A stretch of 64,000 bases of DNA, from contig JBBHKE010000697.1 in NCBI GenBank assembly GCA_037447655.1, positions 58,501 through 122,500 on the forward strand, read 5' to 3'. Positions 10,936 through 61,828 of the stretch are shown one piece after another. The notes beneath the pieces were generated by a model. It was not told where the DNA came from, did no database searches, and saw nothing but the letters and a program-made list of their open reading frames with translations. Origin of the DNA: Zygnema cylindricum (taxonomy: Eukaryota; Streptophyta; Zygnematophyceae; Zygnematales; Zygnemataceae). The position numbers were made by a program, and so were the translations under genes. Position 1 is the first letter of the stretch. Each line of letters opens with the position of its first letter.

Positions 10936-10939
10936 GAAT

Positions 10940-18184: not shown

Positions 18185-18189
18185 ATCGG

Positions 18190-18718: not shown

Positions 18719-18735
18719 GTGCCTCCCACTAAGGA
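18719..18735 (-). promoter_or_regulatory. Gypsy C polypurine tract
   Basis: On the minus strand TAGTGGGAGGCAC lies immediately before the 3' LTR. The AGTGGGAGG core is a typical plus-strand primer site for plant LTR elements. Confidence 0.7.
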
Positions 18736-18763
18736 TTCAGCATCCTGCTGAACTTTGATTGAC

Positions 18764-20632: not shown

Positions 20633-20715
20633 ATATTGGGTGGAGTTGGAAATCCGAGAGTCGCAGGACTAAAGGATTTCTTCCACCTCATACTCGTCCG
20701 AGGTTCCTCGAACTG
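20537..20715 (-). pseudogene. Gypsy C chromodomain with internal stop
   Basis: On the minus strand the frame reads EYEVEEIL, then TAG at 20,669-20,671, then SRISNSTQYLVRWKGYGAED and ELLRRF. The layout is that of a chromodomain. The usual Trp-Glu-Pro after the WKGY segment is replaced by Ser-Val-Asp, so the aromatic cage is incomplete. It follows the integrase C-terminal region. Confidence 0.75.
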
Positions 20716-20833
20716 GTGGTAAAAGAGTATACCGTCGTCGATTAGGGAACATTGAATCAGGATCGCGGAATGGTTTAAGAAGGGAAACATGGAAAACATT
20801 GTGGATATGCCAATCTGTCGGGATATCCAACTC

Positions 20834-22038: not shown

Positions 22039-22151
22039 AGAGTCTCCGTTCCCCTGCTGCGATGCTTGCTGTCGTTGCTCCGCTACCGGCGCAGCAACGT
22101 CGGGTCTTCTTGACAGCGCATCCGCTGGGTTCGTTTTGCCCGGCTTATATT

Positions 22152-23543: not shown

Positions 23544-24124
23544 TCTTCCGAGATCTCCTCCTTCGGCTCCTCCATTGGCTGGACGACCGCCATACCAATC
23601 GTTTCCCCTTTCTTGAATGCCATCTTAAGCTGTAAGGCCGAAAGCAGGCGTCCCTCTTCCGCTCCCTTACCAGCAGCTCCCGCTTTTACCTCGAACTCTT
23701 CTTCACCCTTCTTCACTCTCATGGCGCCACTTCTCCAATCAATTGTCGGATTCCATTTTCGCAGCCACGGCTTCCCCAAGATTACCTCATGGTCCCCAAG
23801 AGGTAATACATGAAGCGTGTCGTACCATCGGAATTTCCCAATGCCGACGCGTAACCTCGGGGTACAATGGGTAATGGATAACGAACTTCCGTCGACCAAT
23901 CGTACCGACTAATGATCATTTAGTCCCACGAGAGGAAGTTTCACCCTTTTCACCGTCGCCTCGTCAATGAAGTTCCCCGATGCTCCGGAGTCCATCATAA
24001 AGTTAGCTGCACTCATTCCTATATGACCCCAAAATATCAAAGGGTCTCCTCCTTCACCGGCTAACCTCATAACGGTAAGTTTTCCCTTTTTGGGACCTTT
24101 CCGTTTTGGAAACTCTCGAGCCAT
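23462..24124 (-). pseudogene. Gypsy C aspartic protease region
   Basis: On the minus strand the frame at 24,124-23,909 contains NFMMDSGASGNFIDEATVKR, a retropepsin active site with Asp-Ser-Gly. A stop and shift near 23,909 lead into 23,899-23,462, which has the flap-like and C-terminal protease parts (HEVILGKPWLRKWNPTIDW) and a charged linker to RT. Confidence 0.85.
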
Positions 24125-25015
24125 ATGATCTGAAGAACCGCACTAAAAGCATAGGCCATTTTGCCTCCTCCGCTGGATTTCCTTGGGGGACAAGTCAATG
24201 CTCTTGGTCTTGGTAGTTTTCTTCTTTTTCCGCAGGACGTTGACCGCTTCCTTATCCACATTAATTGCGCCGAGCTCCATGGGGGTCGGACCTTCGTCTC
24301 GTCGGTTTCCTCCGCTACTGCTCGACCCGAAGTGATAAGGTCTTTGGAGATTAAAGTCGACCGAATCGGTCCGCTCCGCAAACTGGATGATTATTGAGAG
24401 AGGAGGAGTCGTGCTTTCCTGAGCAAGCCATTGTTCCATATCTCTACAAATAGACGACTTAAGCCCCTTCACGAAGCAATCCACGGCTTCATCCTCCGTC
24501 ATCGTAGGTATTTGAACTTTGCACTCCAAGAACCGCTGCGTAAACTCCATCACTGAAGTTTGTTGCTTCAATACTGCGATCTTATCTCTCGCCGCCTTCA
24601 CCGTGTTGACGGGCTGCCAAGTGTCGTGGAGTAGTTGAACGAAGAGCGCCCAGACAGTCGGTATCTCATCGTCCTCCACCATTGTCCTCCACCACGCCCC
24701 CGGTGCCCCTTTAAGAAGACCACCCGCGTAGTGAACCTTCTCACGATCCGATAGGCTAGGAAAATTCTCGAGATAGTTCGCCACGGAGAATAGCCATGAG
24801 TCAAGGTTCTTGTGTCTTGCAGGGTCAAACTCGTAGGGAAGTCTTAATTTCGGTCTCCGGGAGTCTCTCTCTACGCCTCCATGAGGTCGCTCCCTTAGAC
24901 GCGACTCTAAGGCTGTGACGGTGTTTCTCAGCTGTGCATTCTGTAATCTCACACCTTCCAACTCCCTAAGAACTTGCGCCAACGTTTCTGTAGTGGATAC
25001 GCCGTGTTCATCCAT
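24125..25015 (-). pseudogene. Gypsy C gag
   Basis: A 290-codon frame starting at 25,015, 34 bases inside the 5' LTR edge. It has an N-terminal coiled coil (about residues 15-45) and the retrotransposon gag core (LDSWLFSVANYLENFPSLSD, GAPGAWWRTM, VKGLKSSICRDMEQW). The frame stops at the zinc knuckle. Reading through, the knuckle is C-x2-C-GSSDHMARE with the last Cys replaced by Phe, so it is probably defective. Gag forms the virus-like particle. Confidence 0.88.
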
Positions 25016-25029
25016 GCTGTCGAGTCACG

Positions 25030-25047
25030 AGTAAAAGCACCGATACC
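25030..25047 (-). promoter_or_regulatory. Gypsy C primer-binding site
   Basis: On the minus strand, one base inside the 5' LTR, the sequence reads TGGTATCGGTGCTTTT. Its first seven bases match the primer-binding site complementary to initiator Met-tRNA (TGGTATC), the usual plant choice. Confidence 0.7.
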
Positions 25048-25048
25048 A

Positions 25049-25564
25049 GTGTAAAAGGGGTGACAATACACCACAACATCTCACAGTGCACAGAGGGAAA
25101 CACCAAGGATCTTCCCGTAGCAACAGCAGGAGCACACAGAACTTACAAACAAGGTTGCGCTTTTTTATTTGGAAGAGAGTGCAAGGTTGCGCTAGCTGTG
25201 TAGGTCTACTTGAGGTCTCCCATTCACTAGGTTTACTCGCCTATTTAAACTAGTTAACTGCTAGTCAACCTAGTATTATACAGCTGAACACGTGAACCTT
25301 CACGGTCAACCGAGATCTATCCAAAACTTCCTTCTAGAACTATACAGTTCAATCTACATTCTGCGGCGTTGCTATACTGCGCTGCTACGCTGCTGCGCTA
25401 CTAAGTTGCTACGCCGCTAAGTTGCTATGATGCTATGCTGCTATGCTGCGCTGGTCTGGAATCGCAGCTGCGCTGCTCTGGAATCGCAACTGCGCTGCTC
25501 TGAAATCGCAACCATAGCAGCCTAGCCCTAGCCACTAAGTACCCAATTCTGTAACCCTGTTACA
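25049..25564 (-). repeat. Gypsy C 5' LTR
   Basis: A 516-bp LTR, upstream in the element's orientation. It is homologous throughout to 18,190-18,718 and, inverted, to the solo LTR at 16,735-17,249. Confidence 0.92.
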
Positions 25565-29899: not shown

Positions 29900-31094
29900 T
29901 GTCAAGCGCGTGTGCATCTTTGGCACATTTGCATTCCCAGGAGTTCCGGGGCTTCATTCCACTTTGTACAGACTCTAGCGTACGGAGAAGGAAGAGGACA
30001 ATCAGCCGAATCAGATCTTTCTATTTCCCTCCTGGAACACTACGCAATTTAGTTCACCTTAAACAGAGGTCGAACTGAGGAGTTAGTCTGGTGCAAAGTG
30101 TCTGATCCATTATAGTGTGTGTTCTATGTAGCTCTAGTAGAGGGATACCTTAGAGAACGACACGTAACATTTGGGATTATCCCGTAGATCTTACTGTTAG
30201 CTGTCAGTATGATGTTAGTTTAGACCCAACCACCGGGCAAAGCATTTATGACGCAGGGACAAAGTTAGGCGGTTTCACCTCGAGTCAGAACTTTGTTTCC
30301 ATTTTGTGTGTTAGAGGAGGACCCTCGGCCGCTAATCCAGCCGGGACTAGTCGTCTAATTTTTAGCCGTGAGTGTAGTACAGTCTGTTTGTCTTATGTCA
30401 GTACGATAACAATTGCTGGCCGCTGATTGGCCAATCACATTGCTTTGACTTTGGAAATTGCAGTAGGACAAACTCTGGTTGTATAAGGCACTTGGGGCCG
30501 AAGGAGACAGGTTGCTTTTTCAGTAGTGTCTCCTGAGAAAACCCCCAGAGAATTAAATCAATCTTTCTGTTGGAGAACGGTTGCATTGTGTCGTTGACTC
30601 TATTGCCATCTTTGTTTTGGATTGTCTTTTGTGGAGACCGTAGCACGGGTGGGTAGTTGGCACTATCTCCTCTTTGGGCGGTTTGGAAATTCGCTGTTTG
30701 AAACTAAAAAGAGTTTTGTCGGATCCTTGCGGTGGAACCGGGAGGGGTGAGGGAGACTCATACCGATCTTCGGGGCCATTGGGAGAGGTTTTCTTCTTCA
30801 GAGTTTAATCATCGTTGCACTCCGGGGTATGTGAATTCGCTTCACCATTATCATTCATTTCTATCTTTAATTCCATTCTCTGGGGCAAGGTGATATTGTT
30901 TAATATGAAAAGCCGATATTTGTTATTTCTATATTTCTGCGTGGGAGTTATTTGCACACTCTTGTGGTCATCTTTGGGTTTGTCCATAGTTTTTGCGGAA
31001 AGGATCGGACGACTCTCATTTCCTTCCTATTCTTTGGAGAGTAGCTGGGAGTGTGGCATTTAGTGGGCTTCCAGCGGAGTAGCACAAAATCTGG
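29900..31094 (+). repeat. Gypsy D 5' LTR (segment B only)
   Basis: This 1,195-bp segment is about 97-98% similar by eye to 44,440-45,637. It starts TGTCAAGCGCG and its homology ends at AAATCTGGG. The roughly 200-bp segment A that accompanies B at the 3' end of the element is absent here. The sequence from TGGGAAAAGCC onward could be the primer-binding site (it starts TGG), but the tRNA is not identified. Confidence 0.85.
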
Positions 31095-31186
31095 GAAAAG
31101 CCACCTGTCCCCTTTTGTTTAAAAGGATAGCGGCTTAGGGTGGTGTATTTAATCCGAGAGATCTAGCTCATCTGCTCGTGTAAGTC

Positions 31187-33205
31187 ATGGGCGGAGGAGA
31201 AGCTCCGGATAAGGATCCTTCCGGTGTTAGTCTGGAAGAACAGGAAAGACAAGAAGGGGTGGCACAAGAAGAAGAGTCCCAGGTGCCTGAGGAATCGGTC
31301 CCTTTCACCTCTGCTTTGAACATTGAACAGTTTCTTAAGGGGATGATGCCCAAGCCGGTTGTCGTCGAGACTCCTCCGAGGCCGACAGAGACGCAACCGT
31401 CACCTCCACCTCCTCCAGTCTTTTCCCCTGAAAACTTTGCGACGTTGTCCGAGGCCGCCAGGGCTAGGGCCACGGGGAAGGTAGAAAGACAACCTTTATC
31501 TCCCTGATCTCGTAGAAAGGGTTTGGCTCACAAGGAATCGGTCATAGGCCACCTTCGCGAGGTGGTACGTTATACCAAATCCAAGGCTCCAATAGTGGAG
31601 ACATACATGGATCCTGAGCTCTTGTCGGATCTGAACCGATCCGGTCCTAAGGAGATTCTAGCCATTCACAGTATCCATGAGTTGAAGGTTAAGAAGGAGC
31701 TGGTGCAGCAGGTTGATAGAAGCGACCGAGCCCGGATCATACGCTCAGTGGGAGGAGTAGTGGAGATCCTGAGTAGCTCGTCCGACAGTGGCTCTCGCAT
31801 CTCAGCCCGAGAGCAAGCGGAGATGCCGTCCACTTCACGACAACAGCCCACCATATCTCAAGAAACTGCTATCAGTAGACCTTCTAGGGGCAGAGCCACT
31901 TCTCGGGGCAGGACCAGGGAAGGGAGTAACAAGCGGAAGATACCTGAGCCTAAGAGAGATTTCCGGTTCAACCATCGGGACTGCAAAGGTCGATTTGCTC
32001 CCCTAGTCAAAGAAGAGCCGTTCTTCCCTTTTGCCTCAATTTCCCCAAGTTCTATGTCTCCTTCCGCCCCAGTTGTCAAACCATCCGAAGAACTATGGCG
32101 TTCAAGGCCTACAGACCCCAAGGTACCCGGTTTGGGGATTGCGGATCTCTCGGGTGTGGTGAGCAGCACCCAGAAATTGGTTTAGATTTTGCGATCGCAG
32201 GATAAGGCTACGGCGGGGGCCGGACGCGTCGCAATAGATTGGGATGCCCTTGAAGAGGAAAGGAAGAGAGCATTGGAACAGGAGTTGATCCTGATACGGG
32301 AGGCTAGACGGAGATCTGGGGGAATCCTTAGTGGACAGGTAGCACCTCCCCGTAGAACAGGTCCCGCGACGGAAGCACAACCTTTGGATCACGCAACTCC
32401 CACTGTCACGCGAGATTCCCGGACGTCACCAGAACCGAGACCAGAATCTCCTCTTCAGCGGGAAGGGGAGGAAACAACATGGCCTAACAAAAAGGGGTTG
32501 GGTGCAGATTTGCCGAGTAATCCGGTAGCCGCGGCTACAGGTCTCCCTACATTTGTCTCGGTCGAGGGATCTTCTACGGTGGAGGCCGTGGTGCAGCTAC
32601 AACCAGACCGGAGACTACACATTTCCCTCGGACTTACTACTCCTCCTCCATCTCCACCTCAGGCATCCTCTCCTTCGCCTTGTGTTTCTCCGGCCGCTGC
32701 AGTCCGTGGGTCACCGGGACCACCCGTCTTACCCTACAAAAACGACGTTCCTGCCTACTCTCCTCCTCACCGACGTTCTCCCGGTTCTAGCGAAGGAACT
32801 CCTCCACCAGAAACCTCCAAAAGGCGTACACGAAAACAAACACCTTTCCCTCGTAGTCCTCTGTCATCTCCATCCCCTTCTCCACCAATCTCTCAAGAAC
32901 CACCGATGACTAAACCCATTCTCCACATTCCTTCGGTGGAAACATTTCACCGAAAGGAACGGGCCTCTCCTGGGTATAGAGGAGCAGGACTTCGGACAGC
33001 TTTTCCCAAGGTGATAAGCTCCTTAATTCCCAAAGGGCCAACTCAAGGGAGATACTGGTCATCTCACTATCCCACCAGTGACCAGAACTTCGTTAGTGGG
33101 GGGGAGTGCCATCTCTCGTCAGACCGCTCCCTCTACCGGAGAAGAAGACGAGCCCAAGCCAGACGACGCAAATCCAGGGGTAATTTCACCGGTTCAGTTT
33201 GTTAG
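31187..33205 (+). pseudogene. Gypsy D proline-rich gag leader ORF
   Basis: A single reading frame of about 670 codons starts at ATG 31,187 and is interrupted by only two stops (TGA at 31,505-31,507 and TAG at 32,183-32,185). The protein is disordered in character: acidic at first, then Ser/Arg-rich, then strongly Pro/Ser-rich (about 32,640-32,920). No domain is recognised. It overlaps the gag frame, which takes over just after a G-run at 33,100-33,107. A one-base slip there probably separated what was a continuous long gag precursor. Confidence 0.65.
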
Positions 33206-34640
33206 CCCAACCGGACCATCCTCTTCACAGTTCACAAACCTTGCAGAGGAGGAAAAAGAAATGGGGGACATAAGGATCTTTACAGGAGATAGCTCGGGAA
33301 TCACTTTCTCTGATTTCGAACTTCTGTGGAAGTTGTTTACCCAATCTGAAATCAACAAATACAGGGGAGGGGCCATTCCAGCAGATTTTGAAACAACCTT
33401 GTTTCCGATGATGGTAAATTATCTAGCCGGAGGAGCTTTGGCCGATTATAAGGAGCGTCAACCTTTGTTGATGGCCCCTAGTATCAAAATATCGGATCTG
33501 GCTCTGGACGCTGAGGCTCTTCAGGCAGCAGCCGACTTGGCTGCCGCAGCCGCAGCTCCTCTCACCACCACTCTCACCATGGATATGAAACTTCAGGCCC
33601 AATGCAGGGCCTATGTCAACCACCTGCAGGCGGTACAGCCTGCCGAAGCAGCCACCCGTATGGTTGCCAATCCTAATCCCTGTACCACACTTCTGGACAC
33701 TTGGAGACTCTTTTACACAGAAAGGAACGAAACTGCCATCAAGGAGTTCACAGACTTCCGCTGTTTGAAGAATGAAACTCCCCAGATGCTCTTTAACCGC
33801 CTCTCCAGCCTTTGCCAGAAGACCAAACTCTCCACCATCGATACACCGGCTATGGCCAACAAAAATTATGTCGCTGTTCGAAATTCCTTCGGGCCAACAG
33901 GACAGGCAGCTCTGGAAAATTGGAGTGCCAGTCAGGCTATACACGATCGGAATCCGACAGCTCAAGAAATTTCATTGGCTCCTATGAAATTGTATCATCA
34001 TTTTGTTAATAGCGAGGCACGAGAAAAGGCTGTTACCGGGAAATCCAGAGCCAACTTTGCACGTTTCGCCAGGGAAACCTCGCTCAGCCACGACGAACAG
34101 ACAGAACTGCAAGCTTTGCGGAAGCTTAAGGGGAAACAGGAAGCAAAGGCCCGACTTGAACCTCCAATGGGGGGAGATGAAAAAGTTTTTCTTTACGACT
34201 GCCTGAACTGTAACCAGCCAGGTCACGGATGGAAGAGGTGCCCCCGAAAGCTCAAACCAGAACTCGCTATCAAGCAGAAGGAGTTTGAAAGGGAGCGTGC
34301 GGAAAAAACCAAAAAACAACAAGAACGCAAGCAAGGAGGCGGAGGAGGAGACCGAACCCTGGTCACTAAAAAAACCTATAAACCTACTCCACGCTGTGAA
34401 ACCGCCAAAATGTCTCAATCCTAGTTGAGACAAATCCGTCTTCCGAAATTCGATGACGCTCAAATCTCTAATGAGCTAAGGGGGAAGTAGACTACTGAAG
34501 GGTCAAAATGTGAAGCTTGTGGGTTCATGGGCCACAAAAAAGGGCAATGCTTTTGGAAAAATGGGGTTTCGAAGAAGATGATGCAGTATGCATTGTTTTT
34601 AGGCGAAGGGGAAAGTGCCGTTAATCCTCTGCCACTGTAA
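33078..34640 (+). pseudogene. Gypsy D gag with two zinc knuckles
   Basis: The open frame runs from 33,078 to 34,424. From about residue 60 it carries a gag/capsid-like helical region (RIFTGDSSGITFSDFELLWK; FTDFRCLKNETPQMLFNRLS), a first CCHC knuckle at about 34,200 (CLNCNQPGHGWKRC) and a basic tail. Two stops (34,422 and about 34,488) follow. The same frame then encodes a second knuckle at 34,509 (CEACGFMGHKKGQC). Knuckles bind the genomic RNA during packaging. The first frame is well preserved, so decay is moderate. Confidence 0.8.
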
Positions 34641-34643
34641 CTT

Positions 34644-35603
34644 TTGTATCCCTGGGGACGATCTCCAAATGAACCGGGGCCCAGCAAACTGACACCGGAA
34701 CATATCATTCAGCAACAGAGCACTCAGTTGGCCGCTTTGGCAACAGAACTGGCCGCTCTCCGACTGAGATCCTCTTCCCGCACTCCTCAACCTCTTACGT
34801 CGGCTCAGAAACTGCAGAAACAAAAACAAGAACTGCTACAAAAGCTAGCGGAGCTGGAGCAGCAGACCACGTTGGGTGGAGATGATGATGACCTGATGGG
34901 TTGGGATATGGAGCCTCTAAAGGCTCAGCATGCTAGGACATTTCTGTCCGTAGCATGGAATGTTGGTGTAGGGGACAGTCGCAGGCAACTGCGCTCTACA
35001 ACGTCCTCCCAAAGAAATGACAAACAACCGATGGAACAAAAGGATCAGAGTCGCAAAGCCACCGGCCCCTTATCCTTTACCCCGCGAGCAGTACTTCTAA
35101 ACAGTAACGTTGTACTGGGACTCAAGCCGACTAACCCACCTCCTCCGGCTCCGAAGAAACTTCCTCCCGGTGTTGAAGATTACAAGAAGACACAGCCGAA
35201 AGAAAATACTTCAACCACTGAAACAGATCAAGAGTGGTTCGACATATACATGGCAGAAAGACCGTCCACAGATCCGCCAATTACACCTCTTACGGGGAAT
35301 TCTGACGCCGAAAGTGAGGAAAAAGGGGGGGGGGAACAAGAGAAATCGGAAGACGAACACTCACCCATTTCATCGCCCAAAGCTCTCCCTCCTTACTCCA
35401 AACCGGCAGTTATGCTAGTACGACATTTAATGCCCTACGCCTTGACGCATGTGAAAACGTTGGCCTCCTCCCACAATTTGCCCGAAGAAACCCTCATTCA
35501 GGCATTAGGGGAAGAAATTCACACTAGGAGGAAAAGGGTCGCGTTGTCAGAACCACCCAAGACAGTTTTCATGTCGGTAGAACCAAAAACCTCTATGGCA
35601 TAA
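34644..35603 (+). CDS. Gypsy D gag-pol linker ORF
   Basis: A 319-codon frame with no recognised domain. It contains a predicted coiled coil (about residues 22-75, IQQQSTQLAALATELAALRL then QKQKQELLQKLAELEQQ), an acidic stretch, and a proline-rich middle. The end (about 270-319) looks more ordered (VKTLASSHNLPEETLIQALG). It sits between the second zinc knuckle and the protease, in the same frame as gag, and was probably part of the gag-pol precursor. Confidence 0.55.
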   Translation: MYPWGRSPNEPGPSKLTPEHIIQQQSTQLAALATELAALRLRSSSRTPQPLTSAQKLQKQKQELLQKLAELEQQTTLGGDDDDLMGWDMEPLKAQHARTFLSVAWNVGVGDSRRQLRSTTSSQRNDKQPMEQKDQSRKATGPLSFTPRAVLLNSNVVLGLKPTNPPPPAPKKLPPGVEDYKKTQPKENTSTTETDQEWFDIYMAERPSTDPPITPLTGNSDAESEEKGGGEQEKSEDEHSPISSPKALPPYSKPAVMLVRHLMPYALTHVKTLASSHNLPEETLIQALGEEIHTRRKRVALSEPPKTVFMSVEPKTSMA

Positions 35604-35613
35604 GGCCCTTTCG

Positions 35614-36039
35614 GTGGCTCTTATTCTCAACAGGACGGGAAATTTTAAACTTAATGGATACGGCGGGTACCTGGATGCAGTGGTGGATACCGGAGCTCTT
35701 CCAAACTTAATAACTACATCAGCGTTACAACAAATGCCCGAGGAACTCCGGCCAAAAATCAGTCCAAGTGACATATGCTTGAGCAGAATCAGCAGTGGCA
35801 GCCAACCAGTATATGGGATCATAAAAGCCATGGAAATCGAATTTGCTGACGATGCAGGCCAGCACGTGCAGATTCGGCTTCCCTTCCTAGTGGTGGAAGG
35901 TAAGCAATTTGAAATTTTGCTGGGTATGGCTACGTGGACAAGGTTGAACATGGAGTTGAGCGTATGGAAAGAACAAGTTACAGTCTCAGACCCTGAGGAT
36001 CCTCAAGGAACAAAAGTGGTGGTCCCCTTGGATTTGTAG
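35614..36039 (+). pseudogene. Gypsy D aspartic protease
   Basis: A 141-codon frame with the retropepsin active site YLDAVVDTGALPNLITTSAL and a C-terminal ILLGMATW segment matching the family's hydrophobic Gly motif. It lies in a different frame from the preceding ORF and stops at 36,039. About 100 bp later the nested Copia-like element splits the precursor from the methyltransferase. Confidence 0.8.
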
Positions 36040-36144
36040 AACCGGGGAAAAACGACTGTTCCGGTGTCTGGATGCTATCCGGTATACTCTGTCTCAACCC
36101 TCTTGGAGCTGTTCAAATACTCTAACGATATCGCTGATTCTATC

Positions 36145-37410
36145 TGTTGTCCATAGCCATTTTCAGCCATGGATTTACCCTCGGAAGCACCACAAACTAC
36201 CCAAAAACAGCCTACTTTGAATCAACACAGAATTCTACAGAAATAATAAACCAATCTGAAACTCTAAAGAGAGATTGTTTTTAGGCTATTAAATATCCTC
36301 ACAAAGTTTCAGACAAAAATAATAAAAAGAGCGATCACATCATCTAGTCAAAGTTGCAGAAAAACAGTCTGCCAGAACTCTGATAAAACTGACAACTTCA
36401 CAATATATTTACACACAGACCAGGCACACAATAGGTCTGCAAATCTGTAGCAAGGTATACAATAGAAGGAAGAACATACACGCAAAATTTCACATAATTT
36501 TGCCAACAGATCTGAGTGCAATACTCAGACAAAATTTCCAAAAATGACCATAAACAGTTTTTGGTACAGAAAGTTCCCTATGTCTTAAAATGACTAAGTC
36601 CTACAAATGTAAACTAGAGCTCACTACTGAACGTACGGAGGCATACCAGCCGTACGCTATCTACCAGCTACCTCAATTAATGTTAGTATACCCGAATACT
36701 TCAAGGTATGTCAAAATGAGTAAAAGTACACTAATAACTAATTCACAAAAAGACAAAACAATGTTTTCCAAATATTTACACCGACAACAAAATCGTATGC
36801 TGAGTCATTGCGTGTAAGTCAACAAGACTACGAATCTCGTAAAACAATCCGAGCCGTCCAAAAATAGATATTGTATGATTGACGCGATTTCGCGTCACCA
36901 CTACTTGAAAAATACCGGCGGCCTTTGTGCGCCGTCCGTCGCTCTTGTTCGGCACCCTCGATGTCGCGCCACGTGATCCCAAATTCCACTTGACGAAACG
37001 ACGTCAAACCATCCAAATTTGTCCGTACTGCAATTACGTACTTCGCCATAAATTACGCCTACCAATTTTAAGTACTCTTGTAAAATAAGATTCTTTGTAC
37101 CGTCGCGTCCTTTTCCATAAATGCCACTTGTCCCATTATGTTTCTTACGTGCGACGTACCATTTTAGTCTCTTCAAATATTTTACGCCGGATCGCGTCGC
37201 AATCCGCCGTCCATTTCTTAACGCATTCCGCGCCACTCATTTACTCCATCACGTCCCTTCAATTTTACTCATACATTTACTCCCGCAATCCACAAATCCA
37301 TTCGAACCTCCATTTCTATAACCACATTACTTTCGGTAATAACATACACACGAAACGTCGCGTGCGCACAAAACGTGGCGTACGCACGAAACTACGTTTT
37401 CAAAACAACA
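36145..37410 (-). repeat. Left LTR of the nested Copia-like element
   Basis: A 1,266-bp terminal repeat with TG/CA ends. The segment 36,593-36,800 matches the LTR remnant after Copia A' RNase H (10,503-10,612), linking this element to the Copia A family. Confidence 0.8.
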
Positions 37411-37859
37411 CTCCCCCGAAAATTTAGTTTCGTGCACCCATAGTAAAATATTTTGCGTTTGAAATGTAACTGTACCTTTCGTTCAAATGTCACCACTGCT
37501 TCCGCTGACGTCACCACTCGTTTGCTGACTTCACAACTGATTTTGCTGACGTCACCACTGCTCTAGCTCCCTGCTGCCATGTCTTCTAAAATTCTTCCGT
37601 GTTAAATACACCATTGCTTCCACTACCTCTTTCTAGGTCTTCAAAAATAAAAACTTTCTTTCTCACACAATTTCAAAATTTAAAATTTTAAATCCGTAAT
37701 TCCTCAAAAAGTTTACTAAATGTAAAAGATAATCTCTTCCCTAAAATTATTTTTCACGATGCTTTCTTTTGATCATTTTCTGCACATGTTTTCTTCTACG
37801 ATTTATCCTTTGACTTCTACTTCTTTTCTTTGTTTTCTTAATAAATTTGGGTATTTTCT

Positions 37860-38760
37860 CAATTTTTGAACTTTTTCCTTTTTCTGATATTACAAACTTC
37901 CTCTCCTACTTCAATTTTCTGAACACATTTTCTCACTCCCTCTCTAAGTACAGTAATATCCTCATGCAAATTATTTTCAGTTTCCACTTCCAAGTGATTT
38001 TCACTTCCTCCAACTATTCTCACTTCAATAACCTCTTCCACTTGTATTTTCTTATCACTCACCAATCTCTCGTCAGAAAAATTCACTGAAACTAAATCCT
38101 TTGCTGTCACCCCTTTCTCCACTCCATTTTTGGTGATAGCACGTGTTTCCTTTCCTTCCTCATTTTCAATACTTCGAAAAATAACAGTCGGCAAGTATAC
38201 AAACTCATCAACGGGAAGTGTAGCCCTTCGTGTAGGGGGTCGAACCCGATTGTCATCCCATCCATTTCGAAAATTTCCTGTGACACATGCACTTTTATAA
38301 AGTGGACATCCTCTAAAAGTATGTCCTAAGTCATCACAATAAAAACAATTTTGACATACCTTGAAGTATTCGGGTATATTAACACTCCATCCACCACATC
38401 CATAAGCTCCCTCAACTTGAAGTAGCTCTCCATAATACTCCTCCAACAATAATATTCAGTTCCATCAAATATGGGTAAGTACGATTCATCCAATATGGGT
38501 AGCCATGGGCGTGGGCCCATAACCTCTTCCTCTTGTAAATATTTATCACTCACCAATCTGTCATCGGAAAAATTGACAGAAACCAAATCCTTTTCTGTCA
38601 CCTCTTTCTCCACTCCATTTTCGGTGGCAGCATATGTTTCCCATCCTTCGTCATTTTCCATATTTATAAAAATAACAGTCGGCAAGTATACAAATTCATC
38701 AACGGGAAGTGTAGCCCTTCGTGTCGGGGGTCGAACCCGATTGTCATCCCATCCACTTTA
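37860..38760 (-). pseudogene. Duplicated Copia gag fragments
   Basis: The minus strand carries two tandem, diverged copies of the same gag segment (about 38,016-38,270 and 38,519-38,760), each reading LVSVNFSDERLVSDK-like and PTVIF..EN. Between them are a gag N-terminus (PIFDGTEYYCWRSIMESYFK) and a CCHC knuckle (CFYCDDLGHTFRGC). Short pieces of the element's own LTR (around 38,350-38,385) and an inverted copy of 38,257-38,313 (at 38,746-38,803) are embedded. Order and orientation are scrambled, so no working gag is encoded. Confidence 0.7.
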
Positions 38761-38806
38761 TAAAAGTGCATGTGTCACAGGAAATTTTCGAAATGGATGG
38801 GATGAA

Positions 38807-39609
38807 TGTAAACTAGAGCTCACTACTGAACGTACGGAGGCATACCAGCCGTACGCTATCTACCAGCTACCTCAATTAATGTTAGTATACCCGAATACTT
38901 CAAGGTATGTCAAAATGAGTAAAAGTACACTAATAACTAATTCACAAAAAGACAAAACAATGTTTTCCAAATATTTACACCGACAACAAAATCGTATGCT
39001 GAGTCATTGCGTGTAAGTCAACAAGACTACGAATCTCGTAAAACAATCCGAGCCGTCCAAAAATAGATATTGTATGATTGACGCGATTTCGCGTCACCAC
39101 TACTTGAAAAATACCGGCGGCCTTTGTGCGCCGTCCGTCGCTCTTGTTCGGCACCCTCGATGTCGCGCCACGTGATCCCAAATTCCACTTGACGAAACGA
39201 CGTCAAACCATCCAAATTTGTCCGTACTGCAATTACGTACTTCGCCATAAATTACGCCTACCAATTTTAAGTACTCTTGTAAAATAAGATTCTTTGTACC
39301 GTCGCGTCCTTTTCCATAAATGCCACTTGTCCCATTATGTTTCTTACGTGCGACGTACCATTTTAGTCTCTTCAAATATTTTACGCCGGATCGCGTCGCA
39401 ATCCGCCGTCCATTTCTTAACGCATTCCGCGCCACTCATTTACTCCATCACGTCCCTTCAATTTTACTCATACATTTACTCCCGCAATCCACAAATCCAT
39501 TCGAACCTCCATTTCTATAACCACATTACTTTCGGTAATAACATACACACGAAACGTCGCGTGCGCACAAAACGTGGCGTACGCACGAAACTACGTTTTC
39601 AAAACAACA
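38807..39609 (-). repeat. Right LTR of the nested Copia-like element (shortened)
   Basis: The last 803 bp of the left LTR, apparently identical. The first 463 bp are missing and replaced by an inverted gag fragment at the junction 38,803-38,807. Confidence 0.8.
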
Positions 39610-39637
39610 CTATCTAGCAATTCCCTATTTCCAAGCG

Positions 39638-40790
39638 GTGGGAAAGGGAGTATCAGAACCGATTGGTACAGGTGGCCACACTTCGGCAGGAAGTGGAGAG
39701 GAGTTGGCTGCAATATCACCCGGAGCAACAAAAGTTCCCCGGTCGGAACTTCCAACAGTTCCTAACAAAGGGAAAGACTTTAATCGACAAATGGTGTCAC
39801 TACAAATCCCGCTTTCTGGTCTTAGGATTCTATCCCTATTTTCTGGTATTAGTTCCGATCAAGAAGCCGTCCTGCAAGCTGGATACCAAATAGAAACTTA
39901 CTCAGCAGTCAAGATTGACCCGGACGCCCGTGCAGTTAGTGAGACCCGCCTGCAACAGTTGCACCAACTTTACCCACAGCAACTCATGGTGTCCGCCATG
40001 TCTAACTCTCATCGCACGCTTCCCCAGAATGTGGATAATATCACGGAGTCCCATCTGGAAAAGCTCGGAAGGGTAGACCTTGTGGTCGCTAGATGGCCAT
40101 GCCAGGGGTATTTGTTAGCACGACAGGGCCGAGGACACCAGGACGTTCGTAGCAGAACCTTCTTTCAAATGACCAGACTAATAACAGGGTTACAGGAACG
40201 CCAGGACACACCAGTGGGGTACGTCTTTGAAAACGTTCACCCCACAGATGATAAGAGAAAACAAGTGGTCAACAGCTAGAACCAAGTGACCAAGGTTCTA
40301 GGGACTCCCATAGTTTTTGATGCAAGTCAGATCAGATCAAGAGCCCACAGAGTTCGGGCATATTGGACCAACTTGGTTCCTCTTCCAACCCTCCAACAGT
40401 TGTTGAGAACAAAAGTTACAAATCCCAACATCACAGTCCAACAGATCCTCGACCCGGGGCGAATGGCCAAACCGGTGATCAGAGCCGACAAAGCACCCTT
40501 TTTCTGTTGTAATAAGCGTGGGTATCCACGGAGGGCCCTCCCAACTCTGGTATCTTTTCCTAATAGCCACGCTTATTGGAAGGGCGTACCAGGAATGATC
40601 TTTGACAGTACAACCGACACGTGGACAACGCCAAATATTACAGAAAGGGAACAAGCAATAGGGTTTCAACAGGGAACCACAGCTGCGCCAGGGTTTCGGC
40701 TTCAAAAAGGTGCGGTTTAATCGGACAAATCATGGATTTAAATGCAATTTCCTGGGTGCTGAAACATTCTCGTGCATTCTCAAGCCTTCA
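39638..40790 (+). pseudogene. C5 cytosine-DNA methyltransferase domain of Gypsy D
   Basis: The enzyme family transfers a methyl group from S-adenosylmethionine to C5 of cytosine in DNA. Motif I is LRILSLFSGISSDQEAVLQA (residues 62-81). The catalytic loop, motif IV, is VDLVVARWPCQGYLLA, with Cys155 at 40,100-40,102. Motif VI is YVFENVHP. After one TAG (40,277-40,279) the same frame continues with motif VIII (RSRAHRVRAYWTN), a target-recognition-like region and motif IX (NITEREQAIGF). A frameshift at about 40,700-40,714 precedes motif X (GLIGQIMDLNAISWVL, 40,714-40,761). The motif order is canonical, not permuted as in plant DRM enzymes. It lies between protease and RT. Key residues remain, but this copy is interrupted. 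Assignment to the family is firm; the closest subfamily is undetermined. Confidence 0.88.
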
Positions 40791-42064
40791 GTCTCCAAAA
40801 TCACGGACAACATACCTTCAAGCTCCACAGTTGTTGGCCATGCAAGCAACTCTAAAGCTAGTGGGGGGGAGAGAGACAAGGAGGGAAAAATTCACATTCA
40901 CCAAATTCCCAGGAACTTCCTCTGTTGGGGGGAGCAATGGCACACTGGACCCAACAGTTTCCTTAGTGGGGGGGGGCGGAGTCCGTGAACAGGACAGCTT
41001 AGAGGAAGTTGTCTGCAGCAGCGTTTTAACAGCCGAACAAGGGACCGACCCACAGGTAGAGCTGACCTTCAACATCTCTCTCTTGGGTAGACCACTGGAA
41101 ACATTTGCGGCAGTGGAACGTGGGAAGATGGACTGGGGTCTAGGTGAACAGCTAGACCCACAGCAGAAGGCTCGGCTCTCCAAGCTGTTAGAAGATAACG
41201 GGCACGTGTTCGCTTCGTCTGACACCGATGTAGGGATCTATAAAGGGACTCCTTTTCGGATTGACTTGATCGACGAGGCGGCTACTGTTTAGCAGAAACA
41301 GTACCCTCTAAGTTTCAAGGAGAAGGAGTTCATCACTTCAAAGGTGCAGACTTTGGTGGAAGTTGGGCTGGTTCAGGAGAGTACAGGACTACATGGGTTT
41401 GCCTCACCAACCGTGCTCCCGCCAAAGAAAGACTCCTCAGGAAAAACTATAGATTTCCGGATGTGTGGGGACTATCGGATGCTCAACGCGGCAACTGTCT
41501 CCGACCGTTATCCTATGCCTACCCCATAAGAGATCTTCGACTCTCTTGCTAGGGCCACCATTTACTCCACTTTGGATATGAAAAATTGATTCCACTGGAT
41601 TGCAATGGAGCCGAAACACCAAGAGAGGACTGCTTTTTGGGCCGGATCCAGGCTATATGAATGGCTGTACATGCCATTTGGCCTCAAGAATGCACCTGCC
41701 AAATTCCAACGGGCCATGGACGAGGCTCTCCGGGGATTTGATTTTGCAGGGTGTTATATCGACAATGTTATCATTTTCTCCAAGACATTCGAAGAACACT
41801 TGGAGCACATACAGATCGTTCTCCAGGCACTCCAAGCAACGGGCTTGAAGTGTCACCCGGGGAAGGGCATCTTTGGGGTGCAGAAAATTATTTATCTGGG
41901 TCATGAGGTGACTCCGAGACAGTGGGTCCCCACATGGTTAAGGTGGCAGCCCTAGATGCTCTTCCATCCCCGCAGGATATTTCTGCTCTTCGTACTTTCT
42001 TGGGCCTTGCCAACTATTACCGGCGGTTTATTCCTGAATTCAGTAGCCACGCTCAGCCATTGAA
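40791..42064 (+). pseudogene. Gypsy D reverse transcriptase
   Basis: One reading frame carries RT with three in-frame stops (TAG 41,290, TAA 41,527, TGA about 41,587). The order is a connector (FNISLLGRPLETFAAVERGK), LSKLLEDNGHVFAS, GTPFRIDLID, GFASPTVLPPKKDSSGKTID, then MCGDYRMLNAATVSDRYPMP. Fingers-palm motifs follow (WLYMPFGLKNAPAKFQRAMD). The catalytic box reads YIDN (YIDNVIIFSKTFEEH), so the second Asp is Asn. The thumb region LGHEVTP and, after a frameshift near 41,950, a FLGLANYYRRFIPEFS-like segment complete it. It is inactive. Confidence 0.88.
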
Positions 42065-42068: not shown

Positions 42069-42566
42069 GTGTTGCGAAAGGACCAGGAGTGGCAGTGGAA
42101 GGAAGAACAGCAGATAGCGTTCTTATTCCTGAAGGATTCCCTCAAACAGCATCTTGTGCTCCGGATGCTTAATCACCAGCGGCCTTTTCTCCTTTATACA
42201 GATTGGAGCAGGTTCGGATTGGGAGCAATTTTGGCTCAATTTGACGAGGCAGGGGCTGAGTATGTAGTGGCCTACGCGAGCCAAAGTAATAACAGAGCCG
42301 AGGGGAATTACAGCAGTTACCATGGGGAATTACTCGCCGCGGTTTGGGCCATCCAGCACTTCCGGCCTTACCTCTATAGAGTACACTTCACCCTTATTAC
42401 GGATCACCAGCCCCTCAAATGGATCATGGAGAACAGTAAGTTGACTGGAAAGCTGGCCAGATGGGTTCTCATCTTGCAGGAATATGATTTCAGCATCATC
42501 CATAGAGCCGGGGAGATTCATGGGAATGCCGACGGACTCAGCAGGAATCCGGACCCTTCCACCTGA
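42069..42566 (+). pseudogene. Gypsy D RNase H
   Basis: A 165-codon open frame: FLLYTDWSRFGLGAILAQFD with the first Asp, YSSYHGELLAAVWAIQHFRP with Glu, LITDHQPLKWIM with Asp, and the terminal HRAGEIHGNADGLSRN. The RNase H core residues are all visible. It degrades the RNA strand of the hybrid. It is part of the broken pol polyprotein. Confidence 0.85.
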
Positions 42567-42797
42567 GACTCTACTGGGGCGCGACATGACGAAGACCCTG
42601 AGCTCAGCTTGGGACTTATCCGGGCTTCCTCTGCTTTTATTTGGCTGCCTCGGGTCGAAGGAGAACTGTCAACTTTTGCTGCAGATGTAGAGGGGCAGGC
42701 CCCCATTGGAGCCGTCTGGAAAGATATATGGAATGATAGCGATTCCCTCCAATCTATCCAGAAGGGCTCTCCTCTATCCCACCTTGTCGGAAGTTAA

Positions 42798-43627
42798 TTG
42801 TCCCGTGTTCAGTACCGAATGGCAGCTTATGAATGGGACCGAGGCATCCTTCTCCGGAAATGGGCCGATGGGAGGAGGAAAGTGGTTCCCCCTCCGGCAG
42901 ATCGAGAAACGCTCATTGTTCGGCTCCACCAGCAATGCGGGCACTTCGGACAGAAACGAACCACCTCGCTAGTCACAGGGTCGTATTGGTGGCATGGGTT
43001 GCGCGCCCAGGTCAATGGTGTGGTGCAGACGTGCCCTTCTTGTGACCGGGTAAAAGCAGCTTTTGACAAAAAGGGTGGGACTGAGCTTCACTCCCTCCCC
43101 ATCCGGGGGATGTTTTACAGATGGTCACTAGATCTGCTAGGACCACTTCCTACGAGCAGGAGGGGGAACCGTTTTGTTCTGGTCATGATTGAACACTTCT
43201 CTAAGTGGATTGAATTGGTGGTTCTTCCCCGAAAGGAGTCCAAAGCAATCGCGGACGCATTCTTGTAGAGAGTGTTGTCTCAATTTGGAGCACTGGGCGA
43301 AGTTCTAACGGATCAGGGGTCCGAGTTTGCCGGAGATTCTCTAACCTTTTGGAGAAGTGCCTCATTGACCACAAGTTAACCAGCCGAGACCACCCCCAAG
43401 CCGACGGCTTGGCCAAGAGGTGCGTACAGACAGTGAAGCGGTCACTACGGAAATATGCGGTTGAAAAGGATTTGGGGGAGTGGGACACACGAGTGCCTTG
43501 GATTGCTATGGGGTACAGGTTCAGCAGGCAGGCATCTCTCCACTCCTATAGCCCTTACTTCATTCTCTTCGGCTGACATCCCATCCTACCAGGGGCTGCG
43601 TCGGCTCAGGCGGTTGTTCTTCCGAAG
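42798..43627 (+). pseudogene. Gypsy D integrase
   Basis: The zinc-binding region (VRLHQQCGHFGQKRT; VQTCPSCDRVK) and the first catalytic Asp (WSLDLLGPLPTSRRGNRFV) lie in the frame 42,798-43,268, which ends at TAG. The second Asp follows (LTDQGSEFAG). After a frameshift the third segment is HPQADGLAKRCVQTVKRSLR, where the family has Glu in the position here occupied by Lys (AAG). The catalytic triad is therefore incomplete. Confidence 0.85.
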
Positions 43628-44189
43628 ATGGACAACCGGGGTACTGTAGAGAAACTGATTGCCGACCGGGCTAAGGTATTTCAGCGAGAAATACCTCTTG
43701 CCATGGGCAATTTACAGGTTTCTCAGCACAAAGATCAACTCAGGTATTCCCAACGACGGAGCGGCAATTATGTTCCCCGACAACGTCGATTTGTGCCCGG
43801 AGATTTTGTGTATCGCATGCAACAGAAGAAGGATACTTTGGACATTTCGGCCGGATGGGTGATTCTGAAAGTGGTGGAGGTCTCAAACAAAGGGGTTCTT
43901 ACCTTGGAAGGGAAGGATGGCCGCAGAATTAAAGAAAATCAGATCAATGTGGCCCCTTGCCATCTGCGAGGGTTAGAGGATGAACCCACTTTCCACCTCA
44001 CTTATTTTGCACATCCTCCAGCCTGTTCCTCTGCCTGCCATGTGTCCTCCGTACCCTACCTCCTGTTTCCTGTTGGTGTGTGAACGCTGTCACCATGGGT
44101 GGCATGACCGCTGCCTACCTCTGAATTGGGAGCCACGCTCTCAACCCGCAAATCCGTGGTTCTGTGGGGACTGCGAGTTTGGCGGCTAA
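43628..44189 (+). pseudogene. Gypsy D integrase C-terminus with PHD-like finger
   Basis: The frame 43,628-44,083 is a basic C-terminal domain with an SH3-like integrase tail (RFVPGDFVYRMQQKKDTLD; GWVILKVVEVSNKGVLTLEG). A frameshift near 44,040-44,080 leads to the frame ending at 44,189. That frame reads VCERCHHGWHDRCLPL and then PWFCGDC, which is C-x2-C-x4-H-x2-C-x16-C-x2-C, the second to eighth ligand layout of a PHD finger. A first Cys pair may be ACSSAC just upstream, in the other frame. PHD fingers read histone H3 tails, so this could replace the chromodomain of chromoviruses as a targeting module. Confidence 0.72.
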
Positions 44190-44233: not shown

Positions 44234-44437
44234 AATCTAGGGGGGTACAGGGTACCTTTCTTTTCCACTCCATTCCTCCTTACTATCTATGCATATCCCT
44301 GGGGGGGGGTAATGAACAGAGATGGGCATTATCACGGATCCAAGGGAGCATCAGCATTTGGGGTGGATTGCAGGTTTCTCATGCACACCTCCTTGGACAT
44401 ATAACCTGGACCTCCCGGTTACCAGGCACGCTCGACA
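44234..44437 (+). repeat. Segment A, first copy
   Basis: This 204-bp segment (AATCTAGGGGGG to CTCGACA) is repeated at 45,629-45,833. It is joined to segment B by GC, producing the near-palindrome CTCGACAGCTGTCAAG at 44,431-44,446, which looks like an LTR-LTR junction. Confidence 0.75.
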
Positions 44438-44439: not shown

Positions 44440-45833
44440 TGTCAAGCGCGTGTGCATCTTCGGCACATTTGCACTCCCAGGAGTTCCGGGGCTTCATTCC
44501 ACTTTGTACGGACTCTAGCGTACGGAGAAGGAAGAGGACAATCAGCCGGATCAGATCTTTCTATTTTCATCCTGGAACACTACGCAATTTAGTTCACCTT
44601 AAACGGAGGTCGAACTGAGGAGTTAGTCCGGTGCAAAGTGTCTGATCCATTATAGTGTGTGTTCTATGTAGCTCTAGTAGAGGGATACCTTAGAGAACGA
44701 CACGTAACATTTGGGATTATCCCGTAGATCTTACTGTTAGCTGTCAGTATGATGTTAGTTTAGACCCAACCACCGGGCAAAGCATTTATGACGCTGGGAC
44801 AAAGTTAGGCGGTTTCACGTCGAGTCAGAACTTTGTTTCCATTTTGTGTGTTAGAGGAGGACCCTCGGCCGCTAATCTAGGCGGGACTAGTCGTCTAATT
44901 TTTAGCCGTGAGTGTAGTACAGTCTGTTTTGTCTTATGTCAGTACGATAACAATTGTTGGCCGCTGATTGGCCTGTCACATTGCTTTGACTTTGGAAATT
45001 GGAGTAGGACAAACTCTGGTTGTATAAGGCACTTGGGGCCGAAGGAGACAGGTTGCTTTTTCAGTACTGTCTCCTGAGAAAACCCCCAGATAATTAAATC
45101 AATCTTTCTGTTGGAGAACGGTTGCATTGTGTCGTTGACTTTATTGCCATCTTTGTTTAGGATTGTCTTTTGTGGAGACCGTAGCACGGGTGGGTAGTTG
45201 GCACTATCTCCTCTTTGGGCGGTTTGGACTTTCGTTGTTTGAAACTAAGAAGAGTTTTGTCGGATCCTTGCGGTGGAACCGGGAGGGGTGAGGGAGACTC
45301 ATACCGATCTTCGGGGCTAGTGGGAGGGGTTTTCTTCTACTGAGTTTGGTCATCGTTGCACTCCGAGGTATGTGAATTCGCTTCACCATTATCATTCATT
45401 TCTATCTTTAATTCCATTCTCTGGGGCAAGGTGATATTGTTTAATCTGAAAAGCCGATATTTGTTATTTCTATATTTCTGCGTGGGAGTTATTTGCACAC
45501 TCCTGTGGTCATTTTTGTGTTTGTGCGGAGTTTTTGCGGAAAGGATCGGACGACTCTCATTTCCTTCCTATTCTTTGGAGAGTAGCTGGGAGTGTGGCAT
45601 TTAGTGGGCTTCCAGCGGAGTAGTACAAAATCTGGGGGGGGTACAGGGTACCTTTCCTTTCCACTCCATTCGTCCTTACTATCTATGCATATCCGTGGGG
45701 GGGGGTAATGAACAGAGATGGGCATTATCACTAATCCAAGGAAGCATCAACATTTGGGGTGGATTGCATGTTTCTCATGCACACCTCCTTGGACATATAA
45801 CTTGGACCTCCTGGTTCCCAGGCACGCTCGACA
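44440..45833 (+). repeat. Gypsy D 3' LTR (B plus second copy of A)
   Basis: A 1,394-bp segment with TG/CA ends: B (44,440-45,637), nearly identical to the 5' LTR, then the second copy of A (45,638-45,833). If LTRs are B+A, the 5' LTR has lost A. If they are A+B, as the PPT position suggests, an extra A follows the 3' LTR. The ambiguity is real. Confidence 0.7.
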
Positions 45834-51215: not shown

Positions 51216-52269
51216 ATTTTTGATTTTTGTCTTTTTTTTCTACATCAAACATTGAAGTGTTTTAGGTTTTAGAAATATCCAAAATGTCCAAAAAAACCCA
51301 AAAAATATAAAAAAACCCTAGAAAAACGTAAAAAAACCTAAAAACGTAAGAAAAACCGAACTTTATTTTACCTAAAAAGTAGTACTTTTTTTGTCCTTTC
51401 TTCCTTCACTCTTTTTATTTCCTTTTATATGAATAACATGAGAATTTTATGCGTATTGGATAAATTTTTATGTCAATTTGCATAAGATATTTTTGTTGAT
51501 TGGATAAAAAATTAAAAGTCCATCTTAATTAAATGAAATGTCGTACCAAATGGGTATAATTTCATGTATATTTGCATCAAAAAGAAAAAAATAACTATTT
51601 GGGTTTATCGATTGATATAAAATCCATGTCCATTAAATAGTGTGGCACCAAAAGGATAAAATTTCATGTCAATTTAGTAAAATGTCATACTAAATGGGTA
51701 CAATTTCATAAATTAATTTATTGATTGGACTAAAATCCATCCCATTAAATACTGTGGCACCAAAAAGTCATCCGTTCGAATAACATTCGATTTAGTTCGC
51801 ACAACATTGTGTGGAATTGATCGAAACATATATTAATTAATTATTATATATGTAGATATTTATAATTTAGTAACTAATAAATAAGAGTATAATATCCAAT
51901 TGGGTTAAAATTTCAATCAATCGACATGATTTTGTACGCATTCGCGATGAAATTTTATTTAAATCAAGACATTTTATATTTAATTGATATAAGAATGGCT
52001 TTTTTTGTCTTTTTTTTATTGACATTTGGAAAAAAAAATATAATTTGATTAACATGCCATATTAAATTGACATTTAATCATGACAATATGACAAATGGGT
52101 GTGATATTTTTATTAAACAAATAAAAAATATTATTTAGGAAATAAGAAAACTAAAGTATCCCAAGTTTTTTCTTTGGTATATAAAACTTCACCAAGTTCG
52201 CATGGAATTTTATCGCATCGACGTGACATTATACGTAATTAACATGATGGGTGTCACAGGTTATACATG

Positions 52270-52960
52270 GAATGCATGTTATATATGTAACATATGTAAG
52301 AAATGTAATGTATGTAAGAAATGTAACGTATGTAAGAAATGTAACGTACGAAATGTAATGTATGTAAGAAATGTAACGTATGTACGAAACGTAACGTATG
52401 TAAGAAATGTAATGTATGTAAGAAAGGTAACTAATGTAATGTATGTAAGAAATGTAACGTATGTAAGAAACGTAACGTATGTAAGAAATGTAATGTATGT
52501 AAGAAAGGTAACTAATGTAATGTATGTAAGAAGTGTAATGTATGTAAGAAATGTAACGTACATAAGAAATGTAATGTATGCAAGAAATGTAATGTATGTA
52601 AGAAATGTAATGTATGTAAGAATTGTAAAGTATGTAAGAATTGTAATGTATGTAAGAAAATGTAATGTATGTAAGAAATGTAATGTATGTAAGAAATGTA
52701 ATGTATGTAAGAAATGTAATGTATGTAAGAAATGTAATGTATGTAACATTTGTAACATTTGTAACCATATGTAATGCATGTAACATATGTGACATATGTA
52801 ACATATGTAATATATGCGATGCATGTAATACATGTAGTGTATGTTAGAAATGTACAATATGTAATGTATGTAACATGTCTACTATATGTAATGTATGTGA
52901 CATGTGTAACATATGTGTGTACTATGTGTCATGATGTACTATATGTACTAGGCAATGCAT
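52270..52960 (+). repeat. 18-bp minisatellite
   Basis: About 26 copies of TGTAATGTATGTAAGAAA and close variants occupy 52,275-52,745. A looser TGTAACATATG array follows to about 52,960. Because 18 is a multiple of three and the unit lacks stops in several frames, ORFs of about 190 codons appear on both strands. They are not genes. Confidence 0.92.

Positions 52961-61796: not shown

Positions 61797-61828
<32 letters not shown>

Follow-up and report, generated by a model that had tools for sequence, protein, structure and literature searches.

The 64-kb stretch of DNA analysed here (the window) contains a dead member of a Ty3/Gypsy retrotransposon family in which a DNMT3-type C5 cytosine methyltransferase (MTase) is a regular domain of Pol. 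The copy is dead: an internal stop interrupts the MTase, motif X of the enzyme is out of frame, and a nested insertion cuts off the protease. For the family we favour, with a probability of about 0.5, a reading in which UAG readthrough would allow CG methylation of the element's cDNA within the particle, a PHD finger would act at the insertion site, and the host would later silence the new copy and leave it to decay.

The order reverse transcriptase (RT)-RNase H-integrase between direct long terminal repeats (LTRs), established by Pfam, tblastn and repeat comparison, identifies the element as Gypsy; its features lie on the plus strand. The 5′ LTR, which begins with TG, occupies 29900-31095 and is repeated with 96.6% identity as the 3′ LTR at 44440-45636 (K2P 0.034 over 1196 sites). 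A gag frame at 33027-34421 carries a CCHC knuckle near its end, recognised by eye; the frame has no Pfam match, and the gag/CCHC part of the database protein P0009 matches 34200-34595 in tblastn (E 3.6e-7). The aspartic protease frame at 35581-36036 has a PF13650 match (E 3e-4) just below the cut-off of that model, and the P0009 protease matches 35608-35982 (tblastn, E 5e-23). RT lies in a broken frame at 41326-41916 (73% identity to the database protein P0008, E 4e-101; RVT_1 at 41590-41952, 3.9e-18 in Pfam), on the same strand as the protease, and the MTase stands between the two, as the earlier sequence-only reading had held. RNase H follows at 42165-42584 (RT_RNaseH, 1.7e-35; 79% identity to P0008), with a stop at 42564-42566 inside the aligned stretch, and then the integrase, comprising an H2C2 zinc finger and the core, in a broken frame at 42876-43696 (Integrase_H2C2, 1.9e-15; 73-75% identity to P0008, split over two frames); stops and frame changes mark the whole part from RT to integrase. 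Pol ends in a PHD finger at 44076-44182 (PF00628, E 1.5e-4, 22.1 bits against a cut-off of 24), which is collinear with the C terminus of P0008. In tblastn P0008 is collinear with the window from the MTase (39776) through the PHD finger (44174), and chance is therefore excluded as the source of this arrangement.

In the window 3.6 kb separate protease and MTase, owing to the nested insertion, a very young, rearranged LTR element of 3.46 kb at 36145-39609. It contains 807-bp repeats of 100% identity (36606-37412 and 38805-39611) and is flanked by the target duplication CTATC at 36140-36144 and 39610-39614; its assignment to the minus strand follows from an ORF on that strand, which has a CCHC-like knuckle and no Pfam match. 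About 460 bp of the insertion (36145-36607) lie outside the shared repeat, and there is an inverted duplication at 38253-38306/38752-38805. Directly 3′ of the 3′ LTR, 45629-45833 is a second copy (94%) of 44234-44437, the segment before the LTR, an arrangement suggestive of template switching or of recombination between copies. Elsewhere in the window, a Med31/SOH1 match on the minus strand at 52232-52843 (PF05669, E 1.7e-5) is, judging from the protein match, probably an exon from a Mediator gene of the host, and there is a weak TPR match at 61684-62421. A tRNA scan and an Rfam scan at the gathering threshold found nothing in the 64 kb.

The sequence-only reading had called a C5 methyltransferase in this place, and the DNA_methylase model PF00145 matches 39542-40276 with an E value of 6.3e-7, above its curated cut-off (Pfam search). 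When the MTase segment is read through, its top PDB match is DNMT3A (E 7.5e-14), followed by DNMT3C and DNMT3B, with HhaI at 0.04. A profile of 13 MTase sequences ranks DNMT3A first (1.7e-23), then 4onj (1.6e-15), DRM2 (3.9e-11), HaeIII (8e-7) and HhaI (about 5e-5), and DNMT1 chains are absent from its 53 PDB matches (E 0.01). The PDB labels 4onj 'DNA methyltransferase'; we take it to be a tobacco DRM. The profile ranking rules out CMT, DNMT1 and the bacterial dcm type as nearest kin. Motifs I, IV (WPCQG), VI (ENV), VIII and IX share one frame at 39818-40690, and in the alignment the motif order is linear, without the DRM-type rearrangement. By sequence comparison the window MTase belongs to the DNMT3 type with linear motif order, because DNMT3A stands far ahead in the PDB ranking and the motifs are unrearranged. 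Pfam detects neither a PWWP nor an ADD domain in the window element; in this respect, and in being part of Pol, the enzyme differs from animal DNMT3A/3B, which share its collinear motifs and are its top match among solved structures.

The domain as a whole, traced at 39818-40845 by Pfam, PDB and tblastn matches, is broken. A single internal TAG at 40277-40279 interrupts the frame, and motif X, at 40669-40845, is out of frame with the rest, so that the whole enzyme is not encoded by the window copy, though PCQ and ENV are kept; all the motifs listed in the sequence-only reading (I, IV, VI, VIII, IX and X) are present in order, with the amendment that the last is in another frame. The window MTase differs at 4 of 40 positions that are at least 95% conserved among relatives. 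Relaxed selection is not claimed from these lost near-invariant residues, as the database relatives P0039 (6/45) and P0041 (5/40) differ at more of them.

The domain recurs throughout the host genome (353 Mb, 2689 contigs searched). PF00145 gave 782 first-look candidates and at least 123 scored loci, all above the cut-off, and the window's own, weaker match is not within the 123. Every sixth of these was sampled, giving 20 loci with about 10 kb fetched around each (7 kb for one at a contig end). The order protease-MTase-RT, which the sequence-only reading had proposed to look for in other copies, was seen in 12 of the 20 (L012-L016, L018-L020, L023, L025, L027, L028). MTase and RT without protease occur in two more (L024, L026), protease and MTase with no RT within reach in four (L010, L017, L021, L029) and the MTase alone in one (L022); the last (L011) has no retroelement domain and is a chromomethylase-like gene. 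In 9 of the 12 loci with the full order (exceptions L013, L014 and L023) the MTase match is split into 2-3 pieces, indicating that many copies are decayed. The window RNase H gave 2668 candidates, with at least 150 scored, namely the window's own and 149 others of 81-94% identity to it. Every seventh was taken from the second on, giving 22 loci (L032 and L023 among them), and the MTase was found whole or in part at the expected place in 21 of the 22, three of which (L047, L052, L054) retain its C-terminal part only; L066 has no MTase at that place. Copy counts may be inflated by unmerged haplotypes, given the identical pairs L009/L039 and L013/L041.

These counts bear on the idea that an MTase gene or a piece of one fell into a single Gypsy copy, or that the assembly is chimeric. 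The 3.6 kb between protease and MTase in the window would suit it; that distance arises through the insertion, and five host copies of about 87-93% nucleotide identity (L010, L012, L013, L017, L023) have the site uninterrupted. With the full order in 12/20 loci, the domain in 21/22 RNase H loci and collinear relatives in the databases, we reject such a one-off event as having practically no chance of being right; copies lacking the domain, which the sequence-only reading had named as telling against its view, are not the rule in this family. The domain is moreover part of the element's own Pol, MTase and RT lying in one open frame in L007 and L014 (in different frames in L013). Non-autonomous gag-protease-MTase elements (L010, L017, L021) are not claimed: insertion can explain them, and the reading was dropped because RNase H lies on the contig of L010, on the same strand, 8 kb away. 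Among the loci listed, the RNase H copy closest to the window's is at C961:71218-71712, in an uninterrupted frame of 5743 codons, which far exceeds one Gag-Pol; the MTase interval there (L047) matches residues 199-357 of the MTase query only.

The kind of element is already published. Dnmt3 in Pol of a Klebsormidium nitens Gypsy element, KnitGypsy-Dnmt3, was described as intronless and unrearranged (de Mendoza et al. 2018, PMC5890265), as is the DNMT3-type domain here, and the window element is a further case of a retrotransposon-borne MTase, as the sequence-only reading had supposed. KnitGypsy-Dnmt3 has a DIRS-like repeat arrangement according to a figure legend of that paper, whereas the window element has two ordinary direct LTRs. 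When KnitGypsy-Dnmt3 was expressed in yeast no methylation was detected, a result that the authors call inconclusive, and two SymbioDIRS-Dnmt3 enzymes methylated CG de novo in the same host (PMC5890265, section 10). The Symbiodinium elements SymbioDIRS-Dnmt3 and SymbioLINE-Dnmt likewise carry cytosine methyltransferases, but they are DIRS and LINE rather than Gypsy and are called unrelated to the Gypsy case (PMC5890265). Orchid Gypsy elements have also gained an enzyme of nucleic-acid methylation, an m6A demethylase-like 2-ODD; there the demethylase sits in an extra ORF, in contrast to the DNA methyltransferase within Pol here (PMC9289625). A 2025 paper mentions DNMT3s carried by LTR Copia and by DIRS elements, in streptophytes and in dinoflagellates (PMC12344493), and possible roles of transposon-borne DNA methylases are discussed in PMC6338049. 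The main text of PMC5890265 makes no mention of a PHD finger, nor do its abstract and sections 9-11 of a stop site; in the open-licence literature we found no account of liverwort copies, the PHD partner, the second MTase position or the UAG site. Measured against these sources, what is new is the host and the anatomical detail.

Among 43 host loci that, together with the window, have an MTase match (L002 and L010 counted as one place), 15 contain domain-length stop-free MTase frames, 10 of them from a batch (L030-L046) picked for long open frames. In a tree from which three identical or near-identical host copies were left out, the open MTases form two clades. Family 1 includes the window and has P0007/P0008 from the databases as its sister (98/89); the sister of family 2 is P0026 (100/99). 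Each family is more closely related to database proteins than it is to the other family, and the two lines therefore parted before they spread in the host genome. Six open loci, representing four distinct sequences, encode MTases that share 86-88% identity with that of the window, whose end branch is 0.098 long against 0.013-0.034 for theirs. PCQ or ECQ and EN(V/I) are kept in all 15 open frames. Values of dN/dS at dS 0.05-0.2 are 0.13-0.24 for the 13 pairs from family 1 and 0.17-0.42 for the six from family 2, biased downward because frames chosen or found to be open were compared; with that bias, the 19 pairs indicate purifying selection alongside the conserved catalytic residues. For KnitGypsy-Dnmt3 a Ka/Ks below 0.2 has been published (PMC5890265, section 9).

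Such conservation has to be set against the view that catalysis is no longer needed, the domain surviving either because it contributes structure or nucleic-acid binding to Pol or because it restrains the element to the host's benefit. The silence of KnitGypsy-Dnmt3 in yeast (PMC5890265) agrees with this, as does the lower identity between the window and P0008 in the MTase (47%) than in RNase H (79%) or integrase (73-75%). It is hard to square with (P/E)CQ and EN in 15/15 open host frames, and the database relatives that were aligned, in every case where their sequence covers them, retain EN and the cysteine of motif IV; we consider this view improbable.

The preferred reading, in which the enzyme works on the element's cDNA, would begin at a stop codon. 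At 39615-39623, on the plus strand between protease and Pol, the window has TAG CAA TTC, the same nine bases as in host loci; here they stand directly after the inserted element, and the frame onward to the MTase is shifted. In 12 of the 13 distinct family 1 loci with both domains, a gag-protease frame runs into TAG CAA TTC and on into the MTase in the same frame, the exception (L021) having lost the frame. Around these 12 sites, which were located by the nine bases themselves, 17-20% of the flanking positions are invariant, and UAG-CAA-UUC is kept even where the surroundings are about 73% identical in nucleotides (L027). Family 2 has no conserved stop at this place: there is none in L006, L015 and L029, and the stops in others vary. 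UAG-CAR-YYA contexts, of the tobacco mosaic virus type, are leaky, and CAA UUC fits 5 of the 6 positions of that motif. The conserved in-frame UAG between protease and MTase suggests a candidate site of stop-codon readthrough.

A variant of this layout is seen in L001, an open element with the same protease-MTase-RT-RNase H-integrase order and a PHD finger, in which the frame encodes gag, protease and MTase, then meets TAG CAA TCA (6/6 positions), and continues with RT, RNase H, integrase and PHD. If the UAG is leaky, the MTase would be made at the level of Pol in family 1 and at the level of Gag in L001-type elements. L001 is a 9.3-kb contig (CADCWO010000201.1) with identical 127-bp ends in a cyanobacterial MAG; because it is an LTR-type retrotransposon in such a MAG, it is likely eukaryotic contamination with its LTRs collapsed by assembly.

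The PHD finger that ends Pol in the window recurs in L001 with a much stronger match (E 1.4e-13) and lies downstream of the integrase in 5 of 8 sampled family 2 loci (L014, L016, L019, L020, L025). A zinc-pattern scan also picked it out in 18 polyproteins from the databases, each of which has the RNase H-MTase-integrase order. P0037 and P0071 are polyproteins with the MTase placed between RNase H and integrase; beyond their PHD finger lies a stretch that contains a DPWAG(T/S)G motif and to the eye resembles another methyltransferase fold. Ty3/Gypsy chromoviruses are described as ending Pol likewise in a domain of chromatin-reader type, a chromodomain after the integrase; in the window element a PHD finger replaces it, and the MTase is added. 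A second Gypsy element in the window (18189-25564, minus strand) has LTRs of 90% identity and encodes gag, RT, RNase H and integrase; its chromodomain match is weak (E 0.0048), and it has no MTase match.

This partner domain leaves room for another function, in which the enzyme acts after integration, on chromatin near the new copy or on loci of the host; the PHD finger would serve as reader, and silencing or the choice of insertion site would be shaped in this way. The PHD fingers of the window, of L001 and of the 18 polyproteins speak for it, as do the many MTase loci of the host genome (at least 123). Most copies would be silenced, however, and an MTase borne by Pol would sit mostly in particles, and we regard such a chromatin role as possible though rather unlikely.

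What the host did to the window copy can be read from its decay. Sites at which two host copies agree and the window differs were polarised with L007 and L013 for the MTase and, for RT-integrase, with L013 and L012. Most of the changes, 24 of 40 in the MTase and 40 of 66 in RT-integrase, are C-to-T or G-to-A, with 2 and 9 in the reverse direction. Pooled C-to-T rates are 20/278 at CG, 30/363 at CHG and 14/955 at CHH (Fisher p against CHH 4e-6 for CG and 1e-8 for CHG). The signature is absent from L013 (6/410 vs 9/727, p 0.79), which has open MTase and RT-integrase frames, and present in the decayed copy L012 (26/433 vs 20/743, p 0.007); the LTR differences alone give no clear context signal (CG 5, CHG 7 and CHH 10 of 22 transitions). 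We infer that the CG and CHG decay reflects deamination of 5mC after silencing. The suggestion of a self-methylating element, made in the sequence-only reading, thus fails for the window copy, which is unable to methylate itself because it is broken, and whose sequence appears instead to record its own methylation at CG and CHG. Self-methylation is not read from CpG depletion either, an argument dropped because depletion is just as strong in the window's Copia stretches: CpG is 0.48-0.66 in 2001-6000 and 8001-11000, where Copia-type fragments (gag_pre-integrs, rve, RVT_2) lie at 2083-4066 and 8095-10121.

An exon at one of the PF00145 loci of the host genome (C514, L008) has its best PDB matches in 9mvy, 7ubu and 4fsx (E 8e-28 to 9e-28), which the PDB labels DNMT1, with the next DNMT1 chains at 7e-12. 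Presumably 4fsx is the maize chromomethylase ZMET2. By this likeness the host genome has a chromomethylase-like exon, and the CHG methylation points to a chromomethylase as well. Chromomethylases are plant specific and first appear in charophytes (PMC6453930). A streptophyte host is likely because of the chromomethylase-like exon and the CHG deamination signature, both read from DNA sequence; the charophyte host proposed in the sequence-only reading is thus upheld as far as streptophytes, and not as charophyte over bryophyte, related elements being found under liverwort names too.

Relatives in the protein databases (hit lists of 4, 42 and 95, together 134 different proteins; some of the 95 match by protease only or are bacterial-type methylases) include, by source name, Marchantia polymorpha, Calypogeia fissa, Klebsormidium nitens and, for a fragment, Sphagnum balticum. 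No cellular DNMT3 was recognised among these matches, and scans of viral contigs gave no relative. Mapping by blastp reveals two arrangements, protease-MTase-RT and RT-RNase H-MTase-integrase, the latter mostly with a PHD finger. The K. nitens protein P0080 (KFL_009030040), presumed to be a copy of KnitGypsy-Dnmt3, has the order protease-MTase-RT-RNase H-integrase; its MTase is only 33% identical to that of the window and falls in a clade of its own. In a 75-row MTase tree, from which pieces shorter than about 240 residues, five further Marchantia rows and three eukprot rows were left out, the second arrangement forms one clade against the first (98/92). It also lies on one side of a branch in the integrase tree (96/91; 21 rows, three of the protease-MTase-RT kind) and in the RNase H tree (100/99; 18 rows). 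This pattern fits a single move of the MTase within one Gypsy lineage, as far as the three trees go. The window and Klebsormidium groups are neighbours in the 75-row tree (93/72) and in the tree with host copies (87/79), and not in the tree with DNMT3A, which left out four long rows as well. In that tree the DNMT3A row sits on a branch 3.5 long and falls next to the window's group; rooting by DNMT3A failed on so long a branch, and trees without cellular DNMT3 rows do not distinguish one capture from several.

The preferred mechanism would run as follows. The family layout would be gag-protease, an in-frame UAG, and then MTase-RT-RNase H-integrase-PHD. Readthrough of the UAG would yield the MTase at the level of Pol, and the enzyme would travel in the particle, where it would add 5mC at CG to freshly made cDNA, either ahead of integration or in the course of it, and each new copy would thus be marked by the time it enters the genome. 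The PHD finger may bind a histone tail where the copy inserts. Later the host would methylate the copy at CG and CHG, by enzymes of chromomethylase and MET1 type, leading to silencing and to decay of the kind seen in the window copy. Methylation of the element's own cDNA is an inferred step in this chain. Against the mechanism stand the inactivity in yeast, inconclusive as it is, of KnitGypsy-Dnmt3, the only Gypsy-type enzyme assayed (PMC5890265), the chromodomain-type Gypsy at 18189-25564, which does without an MTase, and family 2, which lacks the conserved UAG, together with L013, in which MTase and RT are in different frames; the CpG depletion of the element is also nothing special within the window.

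The findings in the host genome suggest that the association of MTase and Gypsy is older and wider than Klebsormidium. Tentatively, and as a whole unlikely to hold in every part, these elements, with a writer-reader pair within Pol, may represent one old lineage shared by green algae and early land plants; the MTase would have changed place a single time, leaving its position ahead of RT for one between RNase H and integrase, and in this host the copies would be numerous enough to supply a second, transposon-owned source of de novo cytosine methylation. Because DNA methylation is normally what silences transposons, a transposon-owned MTase maintained by selection is puzzling; the problem was raised in 2018 on the strength of a single alga and a single group of dinoflagellates, where the assay of the Gypsy enzyme gave no clear answer (PMC5890265). 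The host genome offers two families with open frames, a likely expression signal, a partner of histone-reader type and dead copies with a readable methylation history, and together these make the question of the enzyme's role for the element directly testable.
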